From NCBI GenBank assembly GCA_002069765.1, contig MWBZ01000035.1, positions 1 through 34,919 of the forward strand: DNA of 34,919 nucleotides, written 5' to 3'. Source of the DNA: a bacterium ADurb.Bin243. Its GTDB lineage: Bacteria > Muiribacteriota > UBA9980. This document shows positions 2,311-25,675 of this stretch, piece after piece; within the stretch, counting starts at the first letter, position 1, and each line of letters starts with the position of its first letter. Position numbers and translations under genes: made by a program. The notes under the pieces are model-generated. The model did no database searches. It had not been told where the DNA came from and saw only the letters and a program-made list of their open reading frames with translations.

Positions 2311-3129
2311 TTATTTCGCCATTTCAAGACACGCAACAGCTCGCGCAGCAGCGGCAAAATCGCCGCTACATTTTTTTTCTTCGTGTATATTAAAGTACTC
2401 ACAATCTTTGGCGACATCCGCGTTTGAATTTATCCATCCTGAAGGCGAATATTGAAAATAAGTCTCGACAAATGACGAAGGCTCAAAAGCTTCTCTGACT
2501 TTTTCTATCATCGTATGAGTAAAAATTTGCTGCCATCCATAATTTTTGTATTTGCCATAAGGAACCGTAATATATATTTTTCCGCCTTTTTTTAGGATCC
2601 TTTTGAATTCTTTGACCGCCTTAAGGTATAGTTCAGGGCTGGATTCTTTATAAACAGCCTCTTTCGCATACAGCATGCTGTTGTCAAGACCGATATGTTC
2701 TATAGTAGAAAGAGACGCAATAAAATCAAAAGATTCATCCTTGAAAAGCGTTTCTCTAAGATCGCCAAAAACATAAGAAACGCCAAGATGATGAAAGCAA
2801 TTCTTCTCGGGAGCCAGCGTCATTATAGTAATTTTTTTGTTTTTAAGCTTTTCATGGGATAGCGCAAAATCGAAATTAAGAACCGATCCGGCGTCCAATA
2901 AATTACCGGCAGTGCTTTCGAGACGTGAAAAAAACCACGGATACTCAATTACGCGTTCATCGATTCTGTATCCGAAGCCTTCCGGCAGTTTCGAAACATC
3001 GAGAGTTTTTGAAGCGGTCACACTAGAAATAATATTGGCTTTATATAAGCAATAACCTGCAGTCCATGGTACTTTACCGCACAAAAAAAATCGCATCAGG
3101 TCAATCTTTTCTTTTAGTTTTGAAATCAT
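2311..3129 (-). CDS. class I SAM-dependent methyltransferase (paralogue of the 18624-19502 gene)
   Basis: A cytoplasmic enzyme of about 272 aa with a Rossmann methyltransferase core. Motif I is LLDAGSVLNFD, then STIEHIGLD as the acidic/post-II region, and FKRILKKGGKIYITVPYGK as motif III. The N-terminal half carries a distinct block, FGYRIDERVIEYPWFFSRL, which recurs in near-identical form in the gene at 18624-19502; the two are clear paralogues. The start at 3129 is chosen because GAGGGAG lies 6 bases before that ATG. The upstream ATG at 3153 overlaps the previous stop but has only an A-rich leader. Its place among glycosyltransferases suggests methylation of a surface sugar, though no substrate can be read from the sequence. 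Confidence 0.8.
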   Translation of the reverse strand: MISKLKEKIDLMRFFLCGKVPWTAGYCLYKANIISSVTASKTLDVSKLPEGFGYRIDERVIEYPWFFSRLESTAGNLLDAGSVLNFDFALSHEKLKNKKITIMTLAPEKNCFHHLGVSYVFGDLRETLFKDESFDFIASLSTIEHIGLDNSMLYAKEAVYKESSPELYLKAVKEFKRILKKGGKIYITVPYGKYKNYGWQQIFTHTMIEKVREAFEPSSFVETYFQYSPSGWINSNADVAKDCEYFNIHEEKKCSGDFAAAARAVACLEMAK

Positions 3130-3149
3130 TTTATACTCCCTCTTATAAT

Positions 3150-4097
3150 TCATCTTTTTTTTATTTTTAGTACCTTTTTAATGGATGTTTTCACGTTGTG
3201 CTTTATCAGTTCAATCAACCCGTGCGATCTGAAAAATACTTTTTCAACCCTCTCATCGGCCGTTTTGTCGCGAATGATAAAATTTGGATGTCGCAACGGG
3301 CACTCAATCGATTCAGTCTTCATTTTAGATACGATGTCTTTTTCGTCAAAAGTATGCGTAGCATCCTTTGAATACCCAATATTTGATATTAAATTCACAT
3401 TAGGTATAATCGATAGGTAATTATTCATAATGAAAGTTAAAAACAATTGATAATCCCAAGTGTTGATCTGATTTTGAGATACGGCATCAAACACTCCAGT
3501 CCAGTATTTAACCTGGGCTACGTTATCCATAAAATCATTCAGCCAGCCGCCCGACTTAATTTCATTCCACATTTTCATATCGACGTCGTAATTTCGCCAT
3601 ACTCTCCGCCATCCAGCCCAGCCCCAAACATGATTGTATCTGGAAAAGTAATAACTGAAATCGGTCCGCGGGCGAGCTCCGAATTGGAGATTCGTGCCAC
3701 ATATCATGCCAATGCGTTCGTCATTTCTGTATCTTTCAAGCAGCTCTCCGGCATATGCAAAAAAAGATATATCAGGCATACAGTCATCTTCAAGGATGAC
3801 ACCTTCTTCGACCTGTTCAAAAAACCAGGTAATTGCAGAGCTAAGCGCTTTCCTGCACCCGAGGTTCTTTTCGCGAAAAAGCGTCGTGACTTCACACGGC
3901 CAATCCACTCCGCCGACGATGCGTTTAACTTCGGCGCATTTCTGCGCATCGTCTTCACGGCCCGCGCGCGGACCGTCCGCGGCAATAAAAAGCCTGGCGG
4001 GTCTAATTTTTCTGATTTTTTCGAAAACCGTTTTAGTAGTGTCGGGCCTGTTGAACACAAGAAAAAGAATAGGAACGCTGAATGCCTTGTTATCCAA
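3150..4097 (-). CDS. GT-A fold glycosyltransferase (HlpA/GNT-I-like)
   Basis: Begins near the N-terminus with VPILFLVFNRPD, the first strand of a GT-A nucleotide-sugar fold. An acidic metal-binding motif, EDDCMPD, follows at about residues 103-109, then HVWGWAGWRRVW and a DATHTF segment. These features match proteins annotated as HlpA-like or GNT-I-like transferases in O-antigen loci. It is a paralogue of the gene at 10519-11463. The longest frame starts at ATG 4127, but a promoter with TTGACA-17-TATATT ends only 1 base before that ATG, so transcripts should begin inside the codons that follow. A GAGGTG site lies 6 bases before TTG 4097, which I take as the start. It is first in a three-gene unit with the methyltransferase and GT9 genes. 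Donor and acceptor are unknown. Confidence 0.78.
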   Translation of the reverse strand: MDNKAFSVPILFLVFNRPDTTKTVFEKIRKIRPARLFIAADGPRAGREDDAQKCAEVKRIVGGVDWPCEVTTLFREKNLGCRKALSSAITWFFEQVEEGVILEDDCMPDISFFAYAGELLERYRNDERIGMICGTNLQFGARPRTDFSYYFSRYNHVWGWAGWRRVWRNYDVDMKMWNEIKSGGWLNDFMDNVAQVKYWTGVFDAVSQNQINTWDYQLFLTFIMNNYLSIIPNVNLISNIGYSKDATHTFDEKDIVSKMKTESIECPLRHPNFIIRDKTADERVEKVFFRSHGLIELIKHNVKTSIKKVLKIKKR

Positions 4098-4128
4098 TCG
4101 CTTCACCTCAATAATATTCCCGGACATT

Positions 4129-10385: not shown

Positions 10386-10552
10386 ACTTCTTTAATTAAA
10401 CCCTTGTTTTTATTTACCCCTGATATTTTAAGTATCGTTATATCAAGAGGCTGGTTAATCCCGCCGTGCATCAGTTCAACGGCTTTATCGGCAAATTTAG
10501 AATTATGGCAGTGCTTTTTTAACGTAAAAACACCTTCCTGATCAAAGCGCAT
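10382..10552 (-). CDS. small ORF, 56 aa, unknown; possible remnant or overlooked gene
   Basis: An open frame of 57 codons starting at ATG 10552 and ending with a TGA that overlaps the ATG of the downstream TIGR04325 gene (ATGA). Codon choice resembles its neighbours, and the product is a plausible soluble peptide rich in Lys, Asn and His (HCHNSKFADKAVELMHGGI, then PLDITILKISGVNKNKG). An in-frame TGA stands six codons before the ATG. The frame overlaps the end of the upstream glycosyltransferase gene by 34 bases, and the ribosome site is weak (AAAGAAAAT). It might be a real small protein, or the C-terminal remains of a larger gene whose front was replaced when the glycosyltransferase gene moved in. 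No family recognised. Without it there would be a 133-base gap in an otherwise tightly packed operon. Confidence 0.5.
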   Translation of the reverse strand: MRFDQEGVFTLKKHCHNSKFADKAVELMHGGINQPLDITILKISGVNKNKGLIKEV

Positions 10553-11463
10553 ATTTTCTTTGCGATAGCTTCAATTTTTTTATAAATTCCGGCGGGCGGG
10601 GGTGACGGACGGCTGTGTTTTGAAAGATAATAGTTTTTAATGGCTTCAAACGCCTTCGCATCGGGTTTCATTTCAATTTTTTCAATCTTAACGGGATTTT
10701 GAGATACTTTAGTGATATTATATGCCCCGGTTACCTGGCAATGCGTCCCGCTCGCATCGTTGCCGATATTATCGATCAGAGACCGTCCGGGATAAAGCGT
10801 CAGCTTATCTTTTAAAAACGCCGACGCATGCCACCTTATAGCCCATGAATCATTAACGCCCTCGATCTGATGCTCGAGCATCTGAGTGAAACCGTATGAA
10901 CCGTCAAAATCAAATTCAGCGGTAAGATTTCGCTCGCGCAGTTCTTTTAAAAGTTTTTTTCCGTCCGATTCAAAAACGCTCCAGCCCCTTTTCCAGGTGG
11001 CCCAGCCCCAGCAGTCGGCGCCCTTTAAAAAAAACGTCTCGTCGAGTTTTCCTTCCACTGGATAAATATAACCGTGTATACTGACCACGCGGTCGCAGTT
11101 TTCGTAAAATTCAAGTCCTTCGTTCATATAACGCAGAAAATAAGGCGAGCTTACCATATCGTCTTCCATTACAATAACGCGCCCGTATTTTTCGACGACA
11201 TCGGTAACCCCGGCAATTATAGATTTTGCAAGGCCAAAATTTTCAGCCCGCTCGGCTATTGTTATTTTCTTAAAACCTTTAACGCTTTTTATATATTCTC
11301 TTACAACGCCAACAGAATCTTTCGCTTTGTCGTTTTTAGGGCCGTCGGAAAAAACTATCAATTCGCTTTCGCCGGCAAACTCGTTTTTTAAAAGCGCTTC
11401 CACCGTTCTTCGGGTATGATCGGGCCTGTTATATACAAAAAGCACTATAGGGGCTAATTTCAT
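10519..11463 (-). CDS. GT-A fold glycosyltransferase (paralogue of the 3150-4097 gene)
   Basis: About 314 aa from ATG 11463. The opening APIVLFVYNRPDHTRRTVEA matches the 3150-4097 protein, as do the metal-binding VMEDDMVSS (about residues 99-107), DCWGWATWKRGW and the late DASGTH segment. These are features of HlpA/GNT-I-like transferases. The ATG shares a base with the CapA stop (TAATG), and GGAGGT lies 11 bases upstream inside the end of capA; the longer frame from 11511 would overlap capA by 49 bases without need. It transfers a sugar in the cytoplasm, presumably to the lipid-linked glycan. Two divergent copies in one locus imply two linkages of a similar kind. Specificity unknown. Confidence 0.78.
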   Translation of the reverse strand: MKLAPIVLFVYNRPDHTRRTVEALLKNEFAGESELIVFSDGPKNDKAKDSVGVVREYIKSVKGFKKITIAERAENFGLAKSIIAGVTDVVEKYGRVIVMEDDMVSSPYFLRYMNEGLEFYENCDRVVSIHGYIYPVEGKLDETFFLKGADCWGWATWKRGWSVFESDGKKLLKELRERNLTAEFDFDGSYGFTQMLEHQIEGVNDSWAIRWHASAFLKDKLTLYPGRSLIDNIGNDASGTHCQVTGAYNITKVSQNPVKIEKIEMKPDAKAFEAIKNYYLSKHSRPSPPPAGIYKKIEAIAKKICALIRKVFLR

Positions 11464-12611
11464 TAGTATAAAAAACCTCCTTTGAGCGCGCAATACCTTT
11501 GAACCGCCCATCTATGAGACTCGATAGCCAAATTATGGCACAGCAAAGGCCCTTGAATTTCTTGTTTGTAAGCCGGGATACCCATAAATTTTTTTATCAT
11601 TAACTTAACGGTTTCGAAAAAAGTAAAATCGGTTTTCACTCCAAGAGAATCATTATAAAATTTTAAATACCTGTTTTGCCAAAGCCATTCAACAATTTCA
11701 TCCATCTTTTGCTCATAAACGCTTTCCGACAACATTTCGTTTAATTTTAACAGTCGAATTAAAAATTTTTCGTCAGCGCATACTTCTACAACACCGTCTT
11801 TTTTTCTGTGCGCTATAATTTCAAATCCTTTATAACGTGCATTTTCAAATTTAAGGCTCACGCAGTAGCCATAATCCCAGAACTCCGCCTTATCCGCACC
11901 GTTATAATCAAAATAAAAATTGCCCAGACTATAAAAAATCGGTTTCCCGCGATAAATTTCTACCCCCTGCGGCACGTGAGGATGATGGCATATAACCGCA
12001 TCGGCGCCGAGTTCGATCAATTTCTTAAAACGCCGGCGCCATTCGGGAAGCGGAAGATCAATTTCTTCTACGCCGGCATGCGCCTGGACTATTAAAAAGT
12101 CACAGTTTCGTTTTGCGTCAACGATTATTTGGTCGGCGCACGGGCTGTTAATCCATGCAAAACCGGGCATCTCGGGACCGGTTGAAGCGCCGAAACCCCA
12201 TTCGGCGAAAGCCAGAAACGAAAATTTAACGCCTTTAATTTCTTTGACGACATTTTTATTGGCTTCGGTAAAATTCAACCCGGCACCTATAACATGAACA
12301 TTTTTAAACATCGAAATCGTATTTTCCAGAGACTTTACGCCAAAATCCATTATATGGTTATTAGCGATATTAAATAAGTCAAACCCCGCATCCACAAGGA
12401 CTTTTGCGACAGATTCGCGCTGGAAAATCGCCGGTCCCGCCTTTAATACGGGCTCCGATCCAGCCGCTTTGACGGGCGCTTCAAAATTACACGACCTGAA
12501 ATCGTGGCTATTCATTTTTTTCAAAAGCTCTTCGCCTATAATACCTTTTTCATGAGGCTCGCCAGCCGCAAAAACATCGCCGGCAAAAAAAAGAGCTATA
12601 CAGTTATCCAT
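11463..12611 (-). CDS. CapA-family metallophosphatase-like protein
   Basis: About 382 aa with the full calcineurin-like pattern of the CapA (poly-gamma-glutamate synthesis protein) family: FFAGDVF near the N-terminus (about 9-15), CNFEAPV (about 41-47), IANNHIMDFG (about 82-91), VQAHAGVEE (about 175-183) and CHHPHVPQGVE (about 208-218), with YSLGNFYFD after it. These supply metal-binding Asp, Glu, Asn and His residues. No signal peptide is visible, so it is probably cytoplasmic. The start overlaps the upstream stop as TGATG (ATG 12611) or GTGA (GTG 12614). CapA proteins are known from polyglutamate capsules, but no CapB/CapC ligase is present, so a role in polysaccharide synthesis or phosphate-group removal is more likely here. 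Confidence 0.85.
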   Translation of the reverse strand: MDNCIALFFAGDVFAAGEPHEKGIIGEELLKKMNSHDFRSCNFEAPVKAAGSEPVLKAGPAIFQRESVAKVLVDAGFDLFNIANNHIMDFGVKSLENTISMFKNVHVIGAGLNFTEANKNVVKEIKGVKFSFLAFAEWGFGASTGPEMPGFAWINSPCADQIIVDAKRNCDFLIVQAHAGVEEIDLPLPEWRRRFKKLIELGADAVICHHPHVPQGVEIYRGKPIFYSLGNFYFDYNGADKAEFWDYGYCVSLKFENARYKGFEIIAHRKKDGVVEVCADEKFLIRLLKLNEMLSESVYEQKMDEIVEWLWQNRYLKFYNDSLGVKTDFTFFETVKLMIKKFMGIPAYKQEIQGPLLCHNLAIESHRWAVQRYCALKGGFLY

Positions 12612-14089
12612 CACTTATCACTCGCCGCTTCAGATCTCTTTTTGATTATCCAGCAAATATTTCTAATATCATCGGCCTCGCCGTATTTGTTGGCGGCGCC
12701 GTATTTTTTCCATCCGTCCGATAACTCAAGCAAAAATCTGTCAATTTCTATCTCGGGCATTATCCAATCCGCTTCTACATCCCATTCCGGCCAATCTGTA
12801 CAATTTCTTCTGTGCTCAAAAATAAAAATTTTTTCTCCAAACTCAAACGCCTTTAAAACGGCCTTTTTCCAGATGGCGGTATCGCAATGGTTTCCCATAA
12901 GCATATGAATTCCAATAATTTTTGGCATTTTCCCGCCCGGCGTTTTCAGATTAACAAATTCTTCGACATTTATCGGCGTATAACCCTTATAGAAGCGAAA
13001 ACCAAATACCATGCCTTCTGACACATGAGGATATATGACTTCTAAAAAACGCTCATTTTCCAAATCGAAGTGGTCGTTCAAGAGTTCACAACAAGATTTG
13101 TGGGTGTCGCTTTCGCCTTCGCCGTACACCTTGCTTATCTTAATAAGCCGTGAACCGGGTAATTTATATTCAAGCTCCAAATAATTGGATTTCTTACCGT
13201 ACATTAACATCCATTCAAATTTATAAACAGTTTCCGGATATCCTTTTTCATCTCCGTTAAAAACGTTAGATGCATAAAGTCCTGAAAAGGGCTTGAATTC
13301 GAGTTCATAAATAGAACGCGTAATTATCGACAGGTTCTTATTTTTAAGATGATTTTTAACTTTAATAAATCTTTCTTCATTTTTAAGCCAACCCTTGCCG
13401 AAGAAAAAAGAATTCACGCTAACCATTTTATTTGCAGCCATTTCTTCCCTGGTTAAAAATGGATACGTCATAACTCCGTTACGCGGCGCTTCATGAAAAA
13501 CCCTTAAAGTAGTGCAATGCAGGCTGATTCCGTCATATTTTTGAACCATGGGGTCAAGAATATAAGGATAATAAGCCTTCATGTAAAGGTCAAAAAGGTC
13601 CTTTTTTATTTTGCTTTTTAATTTATTCAATAAAGCTTGATCGACGGGTTTAGAATAATATTCATGCTGATTGGTTACGAAATATTTTTTTGAAGAAAAG
13701 TCACGCAAATATATCAGAGAAATAAATTCATCGCGGGTTTCACAATTTTTAATTACTTCAAATATTAACTCACAAATTTTAGCCATATATGGGTTTAAAT
13801 CAAAAAAAACAATAGATTCCAGCTGCTCGAGCCTTGCTAAAATATTTAGCCCGCCAAGCCCGCCGATAACCGAATAAAAATTTTTACACTGCATTACGTT
13901 CGGGCCTTCAACGATGCCTTTGAGCCCTTCGAACTGATCGGCTGACGCAAGATAAATTTTATCTTCTAATAAAAAATATTCATCGTTTAATATTTTAACG
14001 CCAACCGGCTTTTTAAAATTATTCGTTGTAAATTTATTATAAACCTTAACCGGTAGTTTAGTTATTTTTTTAAAAATTTTTTTTATCAT
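12611..14089 (-). CDS. unrecognised 492-aa protein with a Rossmann-like N-terminal segment
   Basis: I do not recognise a family. The first 30 residues are basic and amphipathic. A glycine-rich segment, FYSVIGGLGGLNILARLEQL, followed by VFFDLNPYMAKI (about residues 72-104), looks like the nucleotide or SAM-binding start of a Rossmann fold, where the Asp after the second strand would hold the ribose. The middle holds many charged and aromatic residues (YDGISLHCTTLRVFHEAP). The C-terminal third has KIIGIHMLMGNHCDTAIWKK and IFIFEHRRNCTDWPEWD, which could be a second alpha/beta domain. No signal peptide or membrane segment. The gene is AT-rich compared with the operon at 25.9-33.4 kb, as are its neighbours. 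It is flanked by CapA and a methyltransferase, so a glycan-modifying role is possible but unsupported. Confidence 0.8.
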   Translation of the reverse strand: MIKKIFKKITKLPVKVYNKFTTNNFKKPVGVKILNDEYFLLEDKIYLASADQFEGLKGIVEGPNVMQCKNFYSVIGGLGGLNILARLEQLESIVFFDLNPYMAKICELIFEVIKNCETRDEFISLIYLRDFSSKKYFVTNQHEYYSKPVDQALLNKLKSKIKKDLFDLYMKAYYPYILDPMVQKYDGISLHCTTLRVFHEAPRNGVMTYPFLTREEMAANKMVSVNSFFFGKGWLKNEERFIKVKNHLKNKNLSIITRSIYELEFKPFSGLYASNVFNGDEKGYPETVYKFEWMLMYGKKSNYLELEYKLPGSRLIKISKVYGEGESDTHKSCCELLNDHFDLENERFLEVIYPHVSEGMVFGFRFYKGYTPINVEEFVNLKTPGGKMPKIIGIHMLMGNHCDTAIWKKAVLKAFEFGEKIFIFEHRRNCTDWPEWDVEADWIMPEIEIDRFLLELSDGWKKYGAANKYGEADDIRNICWIIKKRSEAASDK

Positions 14090-14110: not shown

Positions 14111-14806
14111 TTAGATTTTTTTTAAAATTAAGCCGTAATTATTCGGCGCTGCATAAGGAAAACCAATAACCATCCATAAAATTTTAAACAATTTATTCAA
14201 TTTTCTAGTTAAAAAATTATCGTATTTGTAGTAGTTGATTTCAAAAGCTATTCGAGTATACCAGCGTTCCAGCTCGCATGCCTTTATCTGCCCGACTTTT
14301 TGCTGCTGGGGATTGGTTATATAATTTAATATAGCCGCCGGAGGATAAACCCGCACATGGTCTATATCGTCGTAGAAGCGATGATTCGCCACAAGAGGAG
14401 ATCTTAATATAATAACCGCTTCTTTTTTCGCCACGCGGAATAATTCTTCAATGACTTTAATGACGCCCGGATAGCCGAAATGTTCAATAACATGAGAACA
14501 GTGGACTATATCAAATTCGCCGTCTTTATAAGGAAGTTCAAGCGCGTCGGCTGAACGGGCGTTATAGCCTTTTTTTAAAGCCGCTTCGACCAATTCAGAA
14601 TTAATATCCGCGCAGTTGATCTCGATATTCTTAAAATGCGATTTTATATGGTCGGCGAATAAACACATTCCACAACCAATATCCGCTAACTTTATTTCTT
14701 TTTCGGCGCCAAAATATTTAAGTATAAAGTTGTCGATTTTTTTAAACTCGATAAGATCGGTTTCAAACGGATATTTATTGACCATCTCGTTAAAATAATT
14801 AAACAC
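14111..14806 (-). CDS. class I SAM-dependent methyltransferase
   Basis: A 231-aa single-domain enzyme. Motif I is IKLADIGCGMCLFADHI (about 38-54), the acidic post-I residue is in INCADINSELVEA, DIVHCSHVIEHF is motif II, and a motif III strand follows as AVIILRSPLVANH. The UbiE/Methyltransf_11 type fits best. The start is GTG 14806, overlapping the wzt stop by 8 bases; ATG 14785 is another choice with no better ribosome site. Tight coupling to wzt is notable, because in ABC-type O-antigen systems a methyltransferase often caps the chain end that Wzt recognises. Whether this enzyme caps or modifies internal sugars cannot be told. Confidence 0.85.
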   Translation of the reverse strand: MFNYFNEMVNKYPFETDLIEFKKIDNFILKYFGAEKEIKLADIGCGMCLFADHIKSHFKNIEINCADINSELVEAALKKGYNARSADALELPYKDGEFDIVHCSHVIEHFGYPGVIKVIEELFRVAKKEAVIILRSPLVANHRFYDDIDHVRVYPPAAILNYITNPQQQKVGQIKACELERWYTRIAFEINYYKYDNFLTRKLNKLFKILWMVIGFPYAAPNNYGLILKKI

Positions 14807-16103
14807 TCAACCCACCGCCATTCCCCAAAGTCCAATCGGCATCGACATATATCATTCCGGAACTCGAATTCCATTTGCAGGAGTTGTCATTTTTATCAGC
14901 CGCAAATTCGACATCGAATGAAAAAACGTTTTCAACGTCATCGAGTTTCTGGCCCTGAATCCATAGTTTGAGACTGATATAATAATTTCCCGGAAGAAGA
15001 GGCATAGACTCGACATTGCATATAATTTCACCGCGCCCCTCAAGTACTTGAGGTATATTATTATTTTGATTAACACTGTCGAGTGTAAAAGCCCTCGTTC
15101 CAAGCGTATTGGTAAATATAATATAAAAATAAGGCGAAACGATTTTAGTATCGAAGTTATAGTAAATTTTCATGCTAAACGGTTTGCCGTTTTCAAGACT
15201 TCTGGCATTTCCAACCATTTCAAAACCGCTTAAATAAGGCTTTAATCCCTTTTCGCGGTTGGGATGCCCGATAAGCGAATTCATGCCCGGCTGATCGTTC
15301 GGTTTCTGGCTTAAATAACAAGAAATAGCCTTTTCTATATTATCGTAACAGCTGATTTCGCCGTTTTTTAAATAAACGCCCCGTTCGCAAAGCATGCTTA
15401 TCGCCGCCATATTATGGCTCACAAAAAGAATGGTCCGCCCTTCTTTTCCGACTTCTTCCATCTTGCCGAGGCATTTTTTTTGAAACGCGGCGTCGCCGAC
15501 GGCAAGGACTTCATCGACGACGAGTATTTCGGGCTCGAGATGGGCCGCCACCGAAAACGCCAGACGGACATACATTCCCGAAGAATAACGCTTCACCGGC
15601 GTATCGAGAAATTTCTCCACTTCCGAAAATGCGACAATTTCATCGAATTTTCGCTTTATCTCTTCACGTCCCATACCGAGAATGGCGCCGTTCAAATAAA
15701 TATTTTCACGGCCCGTCAGCTCCGGATGAAAACCGGTGCCGACTTCGAGAAGGCTTGCCACGCGGCCGTTTATCCAGATATCGCCGGCGGAAGGATCGGT
15801 TATGCGGCTCAAAATTTTAAGAAGCGTCGATTTGCCTGCGCCGTTACGGCCAATGATGCCGATACGCTCGCCCGCTTTTATTTCTAAATTAACGCCGTTA
15901 AGCGCCCAGAATTCTTCGCTCTCGTCCGCCCCGGGCGCGCCGGGCGCGCCGGCGCCGCCCGAAAAAGGATGCAGCAACAAATCGACCGCGCCTTTTGCTT
16001 TTTCGACCAGAACGTCGCGGAAGGTTTTATAACCGTTCTGGCGCTGGTGGCCTATTATATATTTTTTGCCGAGATTTTCTATTTTAATGGCATAATCTGA
16101 CAT
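14799..16103 (-). CDS. wzt: O-antigen ABC exporter ATP-binding protein with C-terminal carbohydrate-binding domain
   Basis: 434 aa. The nucleotide-binding domain (about 1-265) has Walker A GRNGAGKST (85-93), signature YSSGMYVRLAFS (173-184), Walker B ILVVDEVLAVGD (193-204) and the H-loop SHN (229-231). The extra C-terminal 165 or so residues (about 270-434) are beta-rich with FSFDVEF near the end, as in the Wzt C-terminal domain that binds the modified chain end of the O-polysaccharide. With Wzm it powers export of undecaprenyl-linked polysaccharide across the inner membrane. An unusual Gly-Ala-Pro run (GGAGAPGAPGAD, about 49-60) lies between the first beta strands; it is encoded by a 9-base tandem repeat (15933-15959). 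Wzm lies 20 bases upstream and a methyltransferase overlaps its stop. Confidence 0.95.
   Translation of the reverse strand: MSDYAIKIENLGKKYIIGHQRQNGYKTFRDVLVEKAKGAVDLLLHPFSGGAGAPGAPGADESEEFWALNGVNLEIKAGERIGIIGRNGAGKSTLLKILSRITDPSAGDIWINGRVASLLEVGTGFHPELTGRENIYLNGAILGMGREEIKRKFDEIVAFSEVEKFLDTPVKRYSSGMYVRLAFSVAAHLEPEILVVDEVLAVGDAAFQKKCLGKMEEVGKEGRTILFVSHNMAAISMLCERGVYLKNGEISCYDNIEKAISCYLSQKPNDQPGMNSLIGHPNREKGLKPYLSGFEMVGNARSLENGKPFSMKIYYNFDTKIVSPYFYIIFTNTLGTRAFTLDSVNQNNNIPQVLEGRGEIICNVESMPLLPGNYYISLKLWIQGQKLDDVENVFSFDVEFAADKNDNSCKWNSSSGMIYVDADWTLGNGGGLSV
15933..15959. repeat. short 9-base tandem repeat inside wzt
   Basis: Two exact copies of GGGCGCGCC (15933-15941, 15942-15950) followed by a degenerate copy (15951-15959). 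It encodes the Gly-Ala-Pro run of Wzt and stands out as very GC-rich in AT-leaning surroundings. Copy changes would keep frame. Confidence 0.75.
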
Positions 16104-16123: not shown

Positions 16124-16987
16124 TTATATAACATCGGCGAAAGCCTTTTCGGTGTTGCGGAAATAACCGAAGCCTATAACGAATAACAGAGCTGAAACAA
16201 CGGCCGAAACAGCGACGCCCGGCCACCATAACGGCTGGGAAACATCCCCGAGTATCGCCCAGCGAAAGCCGTCTATCACGCCCACTATCGGATTAAGCGA
16301 ATAAAGCAGGCGCCATTTTTCCGGCACTATCGAGCTCATAAAACCTACGGGAGAAATATAAAGCCCGAATTGAACTATGAACGGAACAATATAACGAAAA
16401 TCACGATATTTAACGGTAAGCGCGGACAATAAAAAACCGAGGCCGAGCGACGAAAAAAAAGCCAGGGCCAGAAAAGGAATTATTAGTACAATGCTCGCAG
16501 GCGGTATGAACGAATACCATAAAACCATTATGGCGAGCATAATTAAAAACGCTATTAAAAAATCGATAAAGCTGACTATAACCGACGATGCCGGAATAAT
16601 AACCCTGGGAAAATAAACTTTAGATATTAAATGCGAATTAGCGATAAGGCTGTTTCCGCTATCGGAAAGCGAGTTGGAAAAAAACTGCCATGGCAGGGTG
16701 CCGGCAAAAACCATAATTCCATAAGGCGCGCCGTTTGAATTTAAATTCGCGAGTTTACTAAAAACTATCGTAAAAACAATCATAGTGATAAGCGGGCGCA
16801 ATACGCTCCACAAAACGCCGATAACGGTCTGCTTGTAACGCACTAAAACATCCCGCCAGGCTAAAAATAAAAACAATTCACGATAGCGCCACAAGTCTTT
16901 GAAATAATTAATTTCAACTTTGCCAGGGCTAATATGAAGGGTATATTTTATATTTTTAATTTCGCCGTTTCCCATATCGCCTTTCAT
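16124..16987 (-). CDS. wzm: O-antigen ABC exporter permease
   Basis: A 287-aa ABC-2 type integral membrane protein. About six membrane segments are visible after a cytoplasmic N-terminus: near 60-80, 87-107, 135-160, 165-190, 195-215 and 255-275. WRYRELFLFLAWRDVLVRYKQTVIGVLW (given here by its start, about residues 29 on) is the family's N-terminal amphipathic helix and first membrane entry, and FIVQFGLYISPVGF and YSLNPIVGVIDGFRW are standard late motifs of Wzm/TagG-type permeases. It pairs with Wzt to form the exporter. The start could be ATG 16987 or ATG 16975; the second has AAAGG 4 bases upstream, the first has none. Promoter at 17041-17069 heads this unit. Confidence 0.94.
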   Translation of the reverse strand: MKGDMGNGEIKNIKYTLHISPGKVEINYFKDLWRYRELFLFLAWRDVLVRYKQTVIGVLWSVLRPLITMIVFTIVFSKLANLNSNGAPYGIMVFAGTLPWQFFSNSLSDSGNSLIANSHLISKVYFPRVIIPASSVIVSFIDFLIAFLIMLAIMVLWYSFIPPASIVLIIPFLALAFFSSLGLGFLLSALTVKYRDFRYIVPFIVQFGLYISPVGFMSSIVPEKWRLLYSLNPIVGVIDGFRWAILGDVSQPLWWPGVAVSAVVSALLFVIGFGYFRNTEKAFADVI

Positions 16988-18023: not shown

Positions 18024-18627
18024 TGGTTAGTTCCCTGATAACTTTCGCCGGATTGCCCGCCACGATAGTATATGGCGATACGTTTTTAGTCACTACGCTT
18101 CCGGCGCCGATTATAGCGCCGCGGCCGATTTTAATGCCCTTCAAAATTATGCTTCCGGCGCCGATCAGAACATCGTCTTCAATAGTCACGGGGCTATCGA
18201 GTAAATCGATATCGGCCGGATGCCCTGAAGATATAATCTTTTTAAATTGGTCATGCCGGCCCTGCGGGCTGTAAGGATGGGTTATATTATCGAAAATATT
18301 GCAGTTATGCGAAATTAAAACCCTGTCGCCTATAGTTATAAGCTTTCCGGACCATATTCTGGTTCCCTCGCCTACGTAACAGTAATCGCCGAGCCTTATA
18401 GCGCCCCCGTGCGCGAACGTCAGCAGCTCGCCGCGGACATGAGTATATTCGCCAATCCGAATATTTTCGGCTATGCGCATATTGTTCGAAATTTTTGCGG
18501 TTTCGTAAAGCGCCGAGCCGCGGCCTTTAACGCAACATAAAGCGGCCGGCGCAAAATATAATTTGAGCTCGGCGATAAAATTCCTGACGGCCTTTTTTAG
18601 TATTTTAAGAAACTTCATTTCGATCAC
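18007..18627 (-). CDS. hexapeptide-repeat acyltransferase (left-handed beta helix)
   Basis: 206 aa of the LbH/WbbJ-Maa type O- or N-acetyltransferase family. Repeating [LIV]-G-x4 turns are seen throughout, for example IRIGEYTHVRG, IRLGDYCYVGEGTRIWSG, ITIGDRVLISHNCNIF, VTIEDDVLIGAGSIILKG and IKIGRGAIIGAGSVVTKN, and the C-terminus has the family signature VAGNPAKVIRE. Such enzymes form trimers and move acetyl groups from acetyl-CoA to sugars in the cytoplasm. The catalytic His is likely in LISHNCNIFDNITHP. The start is GTG 18627, overlapping the upstream TGA as GTGA; ATG 18618 is a close alternative. Likely adds acetyl to a glycan residue, possibly to the amino sugar made by the FdtA/B-like pair, which would be an FdtC/QdtC role. 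Confidence 0.88.
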   Translation of the reverse strand: MIEMKFLKILKKAVRNFIAELKLYFAPAALCCVKGRGSALYETAKISNNMRIAENIRIGEYTHVRGELLTFAHGGAIRLGDYCYVGEGTRIWSGKLITIGDRVLISHNCNIFDNITHPYSPQGRHDQFKKIISSGHPADIDLLDSPVTIEDDVLIGAGSIILKGIKIGRGAIIGAGSVVTKNVSPYTIVAGNPAKVIRELTSEERK

Positions 18628-19502
18628 TTTTTTAATTCAACGCAGGCTATGGCTCTTGAAAAAGCCAGATAATCCGGATAATATTTTGATGAAGTATGAA
18701 TATCGAAGAAATCTTCGTTGCCGTCGGCGGCCGTCTTTTCGCACATTGACCATCCGTCGTTTTTATAAATAAAATATGAAATGCTCGCCGAACTGCCGTC
18801 AAAAGTTTTAACGGCATCGTCTATCATCGCGCCGTCGAAAACCTGAAACCATTTAAAATTTAAATTTTTCCCGTAAGGAACGGTAATGAAAACTCTTCCG
18901 CCCGGTTTCAAGATCCTTTTGAATTCGGAAATCACATTCAGATAAGTTCGGGTTTTGTTTTCATTTTTTTCGGTATCTCCGGTATAAAGCATGGTATTAT
19001 CAAGCCCTACATGTTCCAGAGTCGAACAGCACACTATGGTGTCAAACAAAGCGTCTCTGTAGCAGGTGCGGCGAAGGTCTTCATAAATATATGAAATGCC
19101 TTTATTCCAGAAGCTCGAGCTTTCAGGAGCGAGAGTGGATATAAAAATTTTTTTGTTTTTCATTTTCGAATTCGATAAAATATAATCAAAATTCAAAAAA
19201 GACCCGGCGTCCAGCAAATATTCAAAACCGTCGTTTAATCTTGAAAACAACCAGGGATATTCGACCGCCCTTTCATCGATGCGATAGCCGTATCCCTGAG
19301 GAAGCCGGTCGAAGTTTAAATCCGATTCGATAGCCTTAAGTATAAAACGTTTTTTATAAACGTTATATCCTTCGCTCCAGGGAATTTTGCCGTTCAAGTT
19401 AAAAAAGCAAAGGCTGAAACTTTCGTTCGAAAACAACAGCCTATAAACCGTTTTTTTTATAACTCCTGCTATATTTTTTATTTTAGCGTCTTCGGTGCTC
19501 AT
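18624..19502 (-). CDS. class I SAM-dependent methyltransferase (paralogue of the 2311-3129 gene)
   Basis: About 292 aa from ATG 19502, which has GGAG 9 bases upstream. The longer frame from ATG 19562 has no ribosome site, and its extra residues (AAARKPPRSAPEKDD) look like chance translation. Shared blocks with the 2311-3129 protein include YGYRIDERAVEYPWLFSRL, LLDAGSFLNFDYILS (motif I), CSTLEHVGLDNTMLY and FKRILKPGGRVFITVPYGK, and both have a GKIPW-type N-terminal segment. The two keep the same length and order but differ in many positions, so they likely act on different acceptors. It heads the unit controlled by the promoter at 19580-19609 and overlaps the acyltransferase start. Confidence 0.82.
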   Translation of the reverse strand: MSTEDAKIKNIAGVIKKTVYRLLFSNESFSLCFFNLNGKIPWSEGYNVYKKRFILKAIESDLNFDRLPQGYGYRIDERAVEYPWLFSRLNDGFEYLLDAGSFLNFDYILSNSKMKNKKIFISTLAPESSSFWNKGISYIYEDLRRTCYRDALFDTIVCCSTLEHVGLDNTMLYTGDTEKNENKTRTYLNVISEFKRILKPGGRVFITVPYGKNLNFKWFQVFDGAMIDDAVKTFDGSSASISYFIYKNDGWSMCEKTAADGNEDFFDIHTSSKYYPDYLAFSRAIACVELKK

Positions 19503-19579
19503 GTCGTCTTTCTCCGGCGCGCTACGCGGCGGTTTGCGCGCGGCGGCGCCCCTGTAAAGCATTATAAATATTGAGTTAT

Positions 19580-24594: not shown

Positions 24595-25224
24595 ATGATA
24601 ATAAATCAAAAGGGATTCACTCTTATAGAGCTGATGGTCGCCCTTGTCATACTAACAATATTAATGGGGTTCGCCATTCCCGAAGTTCTTAACCAGATCA
24701 ATCTTTCAAAATTCGAAACCCAGAAAGCCAACATAAAAGAAATTCAAAGAGCTATCAACCAGCATTATGCCGATAGAGGAATTTATCCCGCTCAGTTAGA
24801 AGATCTTATCAAGACTGAAGGGGTAATAAAAGTCAATGTCGATGAAAATCGTACTGATTTACAAGATTACATCGATAAAAACAAACTTGTAAAATCCGGC
24901 GGCAATTACTATAAAAAAAAGGATTATGCGCCTTATTTCACTATAATTCCGGCAGACCCGGTCGCCGGCAATTCTTACTGGGAAATCGGAGTTAAATGGG
25001 TTGAAAAATCTCCTCCGCCCGGTCAGGACAAGCCTAAAGAAATTATTAAATGGTATAGAACTTCTTTAATGAACTACCCAGGCGCACCTCCCGAAGTTAG
25101 TTACTCAAAAACCGCCGTTACCATAGGCACAACGACATACAGCCATGTAGCCGTTTCAAATCAGGTCATCGATGGAATAGAATGTGAGTTTAAAGGCATA
25201 GTCAAAGTCAGGCCAAAGCAATAA
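24595..25224 (+). CDS. type IV pilin/pseudopilin-like protein (PilA/GspG type)
   Basis: 209 aa. The leader MIINQKG ends in Gly and is followed by FTLIELMVALVILTILMG, the class III prepilin signal; prepilin peptidase should cut after G7, leaving Phe1 and the conserved Glu5. The alpha-1 helix continues into KFETQKANIKEIQRAINQHY and a DRGIYPAQLEDL segment typical of GspG-like major pseudopilins. The C-terminal half has a lysine-rich insertion (about 80-105) that the next gene lacks, then WYRTSLMNYPGAP, which recurs in the next gene. No assembly ATPase, platform or secretin gene is in the window, so it must use machinery encoded elsewhere. Confidence 0.9.
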   Translation: MIINQKGFTLIELMVALVILTILMGFAIPEVLNQINLSKFETQKANIKEIQRAINQHYADRGIYPAQLEDLIKTEGVIKVNVDENRTDLQDYIDKNKLVKSGGNYYKKKDYAPYFTIIPADPVAGNSYWEIGVKWVEKSPPPGQDKPKEIIKWYRTSLMNYPGAPPEVSYSKTAVTIGTTTYSHVAVSNQVIDGIECEFKGIVKVRPKQ

Positions 25225-25252: not shown

Positions 25253-25675
25253 ATGAAAAAAAAATCAGCGATGACAAAAGGCTTTACTTTAATAGAGCTA
25301 ATGGTCGCTCTCGTCATATTAACCATACTGATGGGTTTCGCCATTCCGGAAGTCGTTAATCAAATTAATCTCGCCAAGTTTGAAACGCAAAAATCAAATG
25401 TTAAAGAAATCAAAAAAGCTATCGACGATTATTTTAAAGATAGAGGCCGTTATCCAAAAAGGTTAAAAGACCTTACTGATACCACTCATCCGTACTTCTC
25501 AGAAATACCCGTCGATCCCGTATCGGGAGCGGCGGACTGGGAAGTCGCCGAAAAACACAATAAAAACCTCTGGTATAGAACTTCCACTACAAATTATCCG
25601 GGCGCGCCGGCGCTGTGGAATCCCGAACCGGAAAGCAGCGTTTATTACGTAAGGCCGAGGCCGGTAAGCAATTAA
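25253..25675 (+). CDS. type IV pilin/pseudopilin-like protein, tandem copy
   Basis: 140 aa. Leader MKKKSAMTKG, then FTLIELMVALVILTILMG, identical over the first 18 mature residues to the upstream pilin, with VVNQINLAKFETQKSNVKEIK after it. DYFKDRGRYPKRLKDL and FSEIPVDPVSGAADWEV follow the GspG-type pattern (Tyr-Pro, Asp-Pro). The C-terminus keeps LWYRTSTTNYPGAP. It seems a shorter duplicate of the first gene. CAGGAG lies about 6 bases before the ATG, 28 bases after the first gene ends; both share the 24546 promoter and the terminator at 25749-25777. Confidence 0.9.
   Translation: MKKKSAMTKGFTLIELMVALVILTILMGFAIPEVVNQINLAKFETQKSNVKEIKKAIDDYFKDRGRYPKRLKDLTDTTHPYFSEIPVDPVSGAADWEVAEKHNKNLWYRTSTTNYPGAPALWNPEPESSVYYVRPRPVSN

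Follow-up and report, generated by a model that had tools for sequence, protein, structure and literature searches.

In the ABC-transporter O-antigen systems of Klebsiella and E. coli, as described in PMC11231755, a terminator modifies the end of the polysaccharide chain, export is restricted to terminated chains, and the terminus is recognized through a carbohydrate-binding module that the transporter ATPase carries; the characterized terminators have a coiled-coil ruler. In betaine-lipid chemistry, BtaA, the SAM:diacylglycerol 3-amino-3-carboxypropyl transferase of the DUF3419 family (PF11899), attaches the homoserine moiety of SAM to diacylglycerol, after which BtaB adds three methyl groups to the nitrogen (PMC10685587). 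A review (PMC10491745) covers aminocarboxypropyl transfer by enzymes with the methyltransferase fold. Among the titles and abstract openings retrieved from the literature, none dealt with a polysaccharide decorated with 3-amino-3-carboxypropyl, and nothing relevant concerned a homoserine ether in an O-polysaccharide.

The window, that is, the whole stretch of 34,919 nucleotides that was analyzed, contains an O-antigen-like cluster of the ABC-transporter type, with 23 genes between positions 1096 and 24433, all on the minus strand. Along with the export proteins Wzm and Wzt, the latter with a C-terminal Wzt_C domain, the cluster encodes glycosyltransferases, an asparagine synthetase-like protein, the products of sugar genes, among them FdtA and DegT, a hexapeptide-repeat protein and CapA, and holds seven recognized SAM methyltransferase genes besides the gene of the orphan protein analyzed here, P0001 (12611..14089, minus strand; 492 aa, ATG start). 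The initial annotation placed this gene between CapA and a methyltransferase in an export-coupled unit, and the profile matches bear this arrangement out. Upstream, separated by 21 nt, lies the gene for a class I SAM methyltransferase of the Methyltransf_11 type (14111..14806, minus strand; G+C 0.36), preceded by wzt (14799..16103, minus strand; PF00005 and PF14524), whose C-terminal domain matches PF14524 with 43.9 bits against a cut-off of 30.4, and by wzm, the ABC-2 permease gene (16124..16987, minus strand), which is conserved in a genome of the same genus. Downstream, the stop codon of P0001 overlaps by 4 nt the start of the CapA/PGA_cap-type gene (11463..12614, minus strand; PF09587, 169 bits). 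In its own genome, P0001 shares one operon with a Wzt that carries the Wzt_C domain.

Several other features of the window came to light. The methyltransferase genes at 2311-3153 and 18624-19562 are paralogues (47.6% identity over 267 residues). The ORF at 3150-4127, which has no Pfam match, probably encodes a glycosyltransferase, judging from the relationship of its sequence to the GT2-type protein encoded at 10519-11511 (24.9% over 245 residues, E=6e-22). Two tandem pilin-like genes, at 24595-25224 and 25253-25675, encode nearly identical N-terminal methylation segments, with 46.9% identity over 160 aligned positions.

The P0001 reading frame was confirmed as a real gene. None of 50 mononucleotide-shuffled versions of the window contains a stop-to-stop frame longer than 237 codons, against 492 codons for P0001, and the plus strand at 12611-14089 is crowded with stops. 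Measured against the codon usage of the 22 other cluster genes, the frame scores +0.23 bit per codon, and the five remaining frames at the locus are all negative on the same measure. P0001 and the adjoining methyltransferase gene have the lowest G+C (0.36) among the 32 genes tabulated. No membrane segment is apparent in the protein, the highest 19-residue Kyte-Doolittle mean being 1.15, in keeping with the description in the initial annotation.

Searches for relatives of P0001 were negative throughout. Nothing exceeded the threshold in Pfam, NCBIfam, PHROGs, PDB, or the plasmid and phage entries, so that the protein remains outside any recognized family, as originally noted, and the profile searches likewise linked it clearly to neither a methyltransferase nor a glycosyltransferase family. 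Specifically, no methyltransferase family of Pfam or NCBIfam was reported at E<=1 for the whole protein or at E<=10 for its fragments, and no glycosyltransferase model of either collection matched the whole protein or the fragments. At E<=10, plasmids and phages yielded 5 and 1 chance-like pieces, respectively. A tblastn search of approximately 1,570 whole genomes (189 relatives, 12 mixed genomes, and five other groups of 395, 247, 345, 184 and 201, summed with small overlaps left in) retrieved only P0001 itself and one chance-like piece, the empty answers being limited by the initial filter of the tool; in its own genome, P0001 was retrieved alone. The single piece, with E=0.004 over 72 residues in a frame that contains three stops, was dismissed as chance. 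In the 39 genomes of the phylum, a set largely included in the 189 relatives, the search at E<=0.1 gave P0001 itself and a chance-like 61-residue match in one genome (G009, E=0.07), and none of the 593 ORFs in 15 regions around same-phylum Wzt genes was a relative (best E 0.28).

Scans for short motifs gave the same outcome: an exact 8-mer scan returned 25 stretches from GTDB contigs and 5 from viral contigs, and a degenerate query 44 stretches from viral contigs, none of them a P0001 relative. The DNA pattern for GGxGGxN...DxNP and the pattern for the C-terminal motif had no viral matches. Relaxed versions of the former had 17 viral and 51 GTDB matches, and tblastn of P0001 (E<=1) detected no relative among the 17 viral or all 68 pattern matches, the translations of which do not resemble relatives either, in a search run without a positive control. 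Given that such scans require exact motif matches, distant relatives of P0001 may well exist.

The initial annotation described a glycine-rich, Rossmann-like start. The glycine-rich motif, GGLGGLN, is indeed present but is located 75 residues into the protein rather than at the N-terminus; the Rossmann-like character stands as far as the sequence alone can indicate. Residues 72-100 look like the strand-loop-helix-strand unit of a SAM-type Rossmann fold (YSVIGGLGGLNILARLEQLESIVFFDLNP), with a putative SAM-binding loop (13790..13864, minus strand) that extends from GGLGGLN (residues 76-82) to DLNP (residues 97-100) and is part of the best hhalign match to DUF3419 (residues 79-130). Single-sequence AlphaFold models were unusable (pLDDT 33.9 and 35.4), with values too low for fold-search matches to carry any meaning.

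The comparison with DUF3419 employed a profile built from proteins found in genomes of the phylum after the likeness had been noticed by eye, so that the P-values are optimistic. With hhalign, P0001 scored 35.3 against the profile of 24 sequences (P=0.00063) and 35.8 against the profile of 30 sequences; the best scores of shuffled sequences were 27.3 and 27.7 in two sets of 200 global shuffles and 25.1 in 250 shuffles that preserved local composition. P0001 ranked 2nd of 168 proteins (P0001 itself, E. coli SpeE, the 22 further proteins of the window and neighbour ORFs that do not overlap). The first-ranked protein matches only the C-terminal part of DUF3419: it is a 510-aa ORF that directly follows a wzt gene in a different genome from this phylum (L105:8958-10487, G019), and its match to the C-terminal part of the profile, with a score of 49.1, is the strongest among the 168. 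The signature GGxNxL...DxNP is present in P0001 as G79, G80, N82, L84, D97, N99 and P100, the commonest DUF3419 residues at these positions; among the 30 rows of the family alignment, G80 and D97 are shared by 30, L84 and N99 by 29, P100 by 27 and N82 by 26. DUF3419 proteins have a second conserved stretch that ends in SN or SD before IF; in P0001, a second stretch (residues 238-277, ending ASNVF; 13259..13378, minus strand) aligns in collinear order with profile positions 275-316, including S274-N275-V-F277. Against the C-terminal profile, this region scored 24.4, compared with at most 19.9 in 120 shuffles, yet P0001 ranked only 6th of the 168 proteins on that profile alone, with some methyltransferases above it.

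The same comparison indicates how far P0001 is from the family. Each of two DUF3419 proteins that had been kept out of the profile scored 323, against 35 for P0001, so that the link is at best very remote. The Pfam model of DUF3419 (cut-off 28.2 bits), which gives 223-411 bits for three true members of full length, reported P0001 neither as a whole at E<=1 nor as fragments at E<=10. In a plain hmmsearch, P0001 obtained 7.3 bits and the methyltransferase encoded at 14111-14806 obtained 7.4, the best of 300 shuffles reaching 5.4. The Q/H two positions after NP and the K/R seven positions further, each present in 30 of 30 rows, are replaced by M102 and I109; a near-invariant A corresponds to V112, and a G found in 27 of 30 rows to Y127. 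In the unbiased Pfam scan, moreover, the top family was not DUF3419 but DUF7790 (PF25046; E=0.098, 12.5 bits), with the best fragment reaching E=0.02 and 14.7 bits. Considering the weak score, the missing residues, the first place of DUF7790, the tie in hmmsearch and the 6th rank on the C-terminal profile, we conclude with moderate confidence that P0001 possesses a predicted DUF3419-like SAM pocket and is not a member of DUF3419. The similarity to DUF7790 consists in a nearly ungapped alignment of residues about 61-144, but the 12.5-14.7 bits fall short of the cut-off of 23 bits, and DUF7790 itself is a family without an assigned function, on which no literature was found. A DUF7790 scan gave no match in any of 142 genomes or of 14 controls, and the family is not reported for true DUF3419 proteins. 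Spermidine synthase (SpeE), which has a loop of the GGxGG type similar to P0001 by eye, was set aside in favour of DUF3419 on motif comparison by eye; on the DUF3419 profile, E. coli SpeE reaches 18.9, well short of P0001.

These results also bear on the rather improbable reading under which P0001 belongs to another enzyme class, for instance a glycosyltransferase or an acyltransferase of unknown fold, and its likeness to DUF3419 is due to chance. Orphan glycosyltransferases are common in polysaccharide clusters, and a weak likeness selected by eye, with DUF7790 ranked first by the unbiased scan, is compatible with such an origin; against it, two separate stretches of P0001 match DUF3419 in the correct order, and no acyltransferase model, just as no glycosyltransferase model, matches the protein. 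An ordinary, if very divergent, sugar O- or N-methyltransferase in a methyltransferase-rich cluster similarly appears to be an unlikely identity for P0001. The seven further methyltransferase genes speak for it, a generic methyltransferase profile, when forced, sets motif I on residues 75-100, and residues 61-145 give a phmmer match to the solved 'methyltransferase' 3dli at chance level (E=9). By contrast, no methyltransferase family is reported for the protein or its fragments, its score of 12.0 against a profile of 13 local methyltransferases does not reach the 21.7 of the best among 150 shuffles, and its GGxGGxN pattern differs from the usual GxGxG of methyltransferases.

True DUF3419 proteins occur in the same lineage. 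The genome that encodes P0001 carries a BtaA-like DUF3419 gene (L120; G000:C116:4011-5111) beside a transporter-like ORF, and 24 of the 39 phylum genomes searched have a DUF3419 match, which in one case scores under the cut-off; this suggests betaine-lipid-type chemistry in this phylum.

The genomic context was compared with locus L099 of one same-genus genome, G002; a third member of the genus yields no Wzt match at E<=1e-30, so that the comparison consists of this one pair. The related locus preserves the order of the genes for GT4, GT2, AsnB, Wzm and the Wzt ATPase, but the three genes that separate AsnB from Wzm here are missing from it. Identity between the two Wzt proteins drops from 26/30 in residues 211-240 to 4/30 in residues 241-270, and the G+C content of wzt is 0.51 over residues 1-250 but 0.395 over residues 251-434, which delimits a probably exchanged part of the gene from about residue 240/241 onwards (14799..15383, minus strand). 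This boundary is sharp and recombination-like, and the downstream genes all differ as far as they have been sequenced: in the related genome, wzt is followed by genes of the nucleotidyl transferase, epimerase/dehydratase and methyltransferase types, and P0001 is absent from the sequenced region. The recognition domain of Wzt and the genes behind it, including P0001, differ as a block between the two genomes, and this difference probably arose by exchange. As the ATPase part is kept but Wzt_C and the downstream genes are changed, P0001 appears to reside in a block that can be exchanged together with a Wzt recognition domain of its own.

Such an arrangement bears on the idea that P0001 is a chain terminator or capping enzyme, a counterpart of WbdD, the product of which is read by the C-terminal domain of Wzt. 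This idea is compatible with the explanation that we prefer and, taken by itself, is improbable. Residence in the same cassette as the exchanged Wzt_C and the export of terminated chains alone in the Klebsiella and E. coli systems of PMC11231755 speak for it. However, inspection reveals no evident long coiled coil in P0001, no kinase or glycosyltransferase domain was found by Pfam, NCBIfam and fragment searches, and the methyltransferase whose gene (14111-14806) directly follows wzt could be the terminator just as well.

The explanation that we prefer, and put forward tentatively, as it falls somewhat short of an even chance, is that P0001, a cytoplasmic enzyme with a divergent DUF3419/BtaA-like pocket, carries out SAM-dependent group transfer and so modifies the glycan of the cluster before export. 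The enzyme would bind SAM in a very divergent Rossmann-type pocket, to which that of DUF3419/BtaA is the closest likeness, and would act on the cluster polysaccharide or its precursor, after which Wzm/Wzt would export the modified polysaccharide. Because the cassette begins inside wzt, the product of P0001 is plausibly part of what the C-terminal domain of Wzt recognizes, whether as a cap or as a decoration. For the transferred group, methyl would be the conservative choice and aminocarboxypropyl the bold one. The assignment to SAM-dependent transferases acting on this glycan draws on analogy with the BtaA/BtaB, aminocarboxypropyl and terminator literature, and a SAM-dependent glycan-modifying enzyme is, in our assessment, likely but unproven. 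The initial annotation had suggested a new kind of sugar-modifying enzyme; the putative SAM-type pocket and the operon context favour a transferase acting on a glycan, and that it is of a new kind is something that we still only infer. If the preferred explanation holds, the SAM-dependent enzyme of an exchangeable polysaccharide cassette lies outside all family models searched and is accompanied by a Wzt recognition domain of the cassette's own, which would provide a target for new glycan chemistry and a route to pairing a modifying enzyme with the Wzt domain that travels with it. The aminocarboxypropyl version would extend betaine-lipid chemistry to polysaccharides; if P0001 is only a divergent methyltransferase, there is little import beyond annotation.

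Compared with the known systems, P0001 resembles DUF3419/BtaA in the GGxNxL...DxNP loop with the helix after it and, less clearly, in the collinear second stretch ending in SN[IV]F, and differs in its location within a glycan cluster, in a shorter middle insert and in about 120 extra C-terminal residues. This C-terminal extension (about residues 373-492, with the boundary estimated by eye; 12614..12973, minus strand) had no match in any family or database search. P0001 adjoins a SAM methyltransferase gene, an arrangement also seen in Rhizobium leguminosarum, where DUF3419 is paired with a methyltransferase; the identity of the neighbour of P0001 as BtaB is not supported, since the R. leguminosarum methyltransferase gives E=0.15 against it, no better than with the other window methyltransferases. 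In contrast to the WbdD-type terminators, P0001 has no kinase domain, no recognized methyltransferase or other transferase domain and, by eye, no evident coiled-coil ruler; like them, it belongs to a cluster that has an ABC transporter with a C-terminal recognition domain and SAM-dependent genes beside it.
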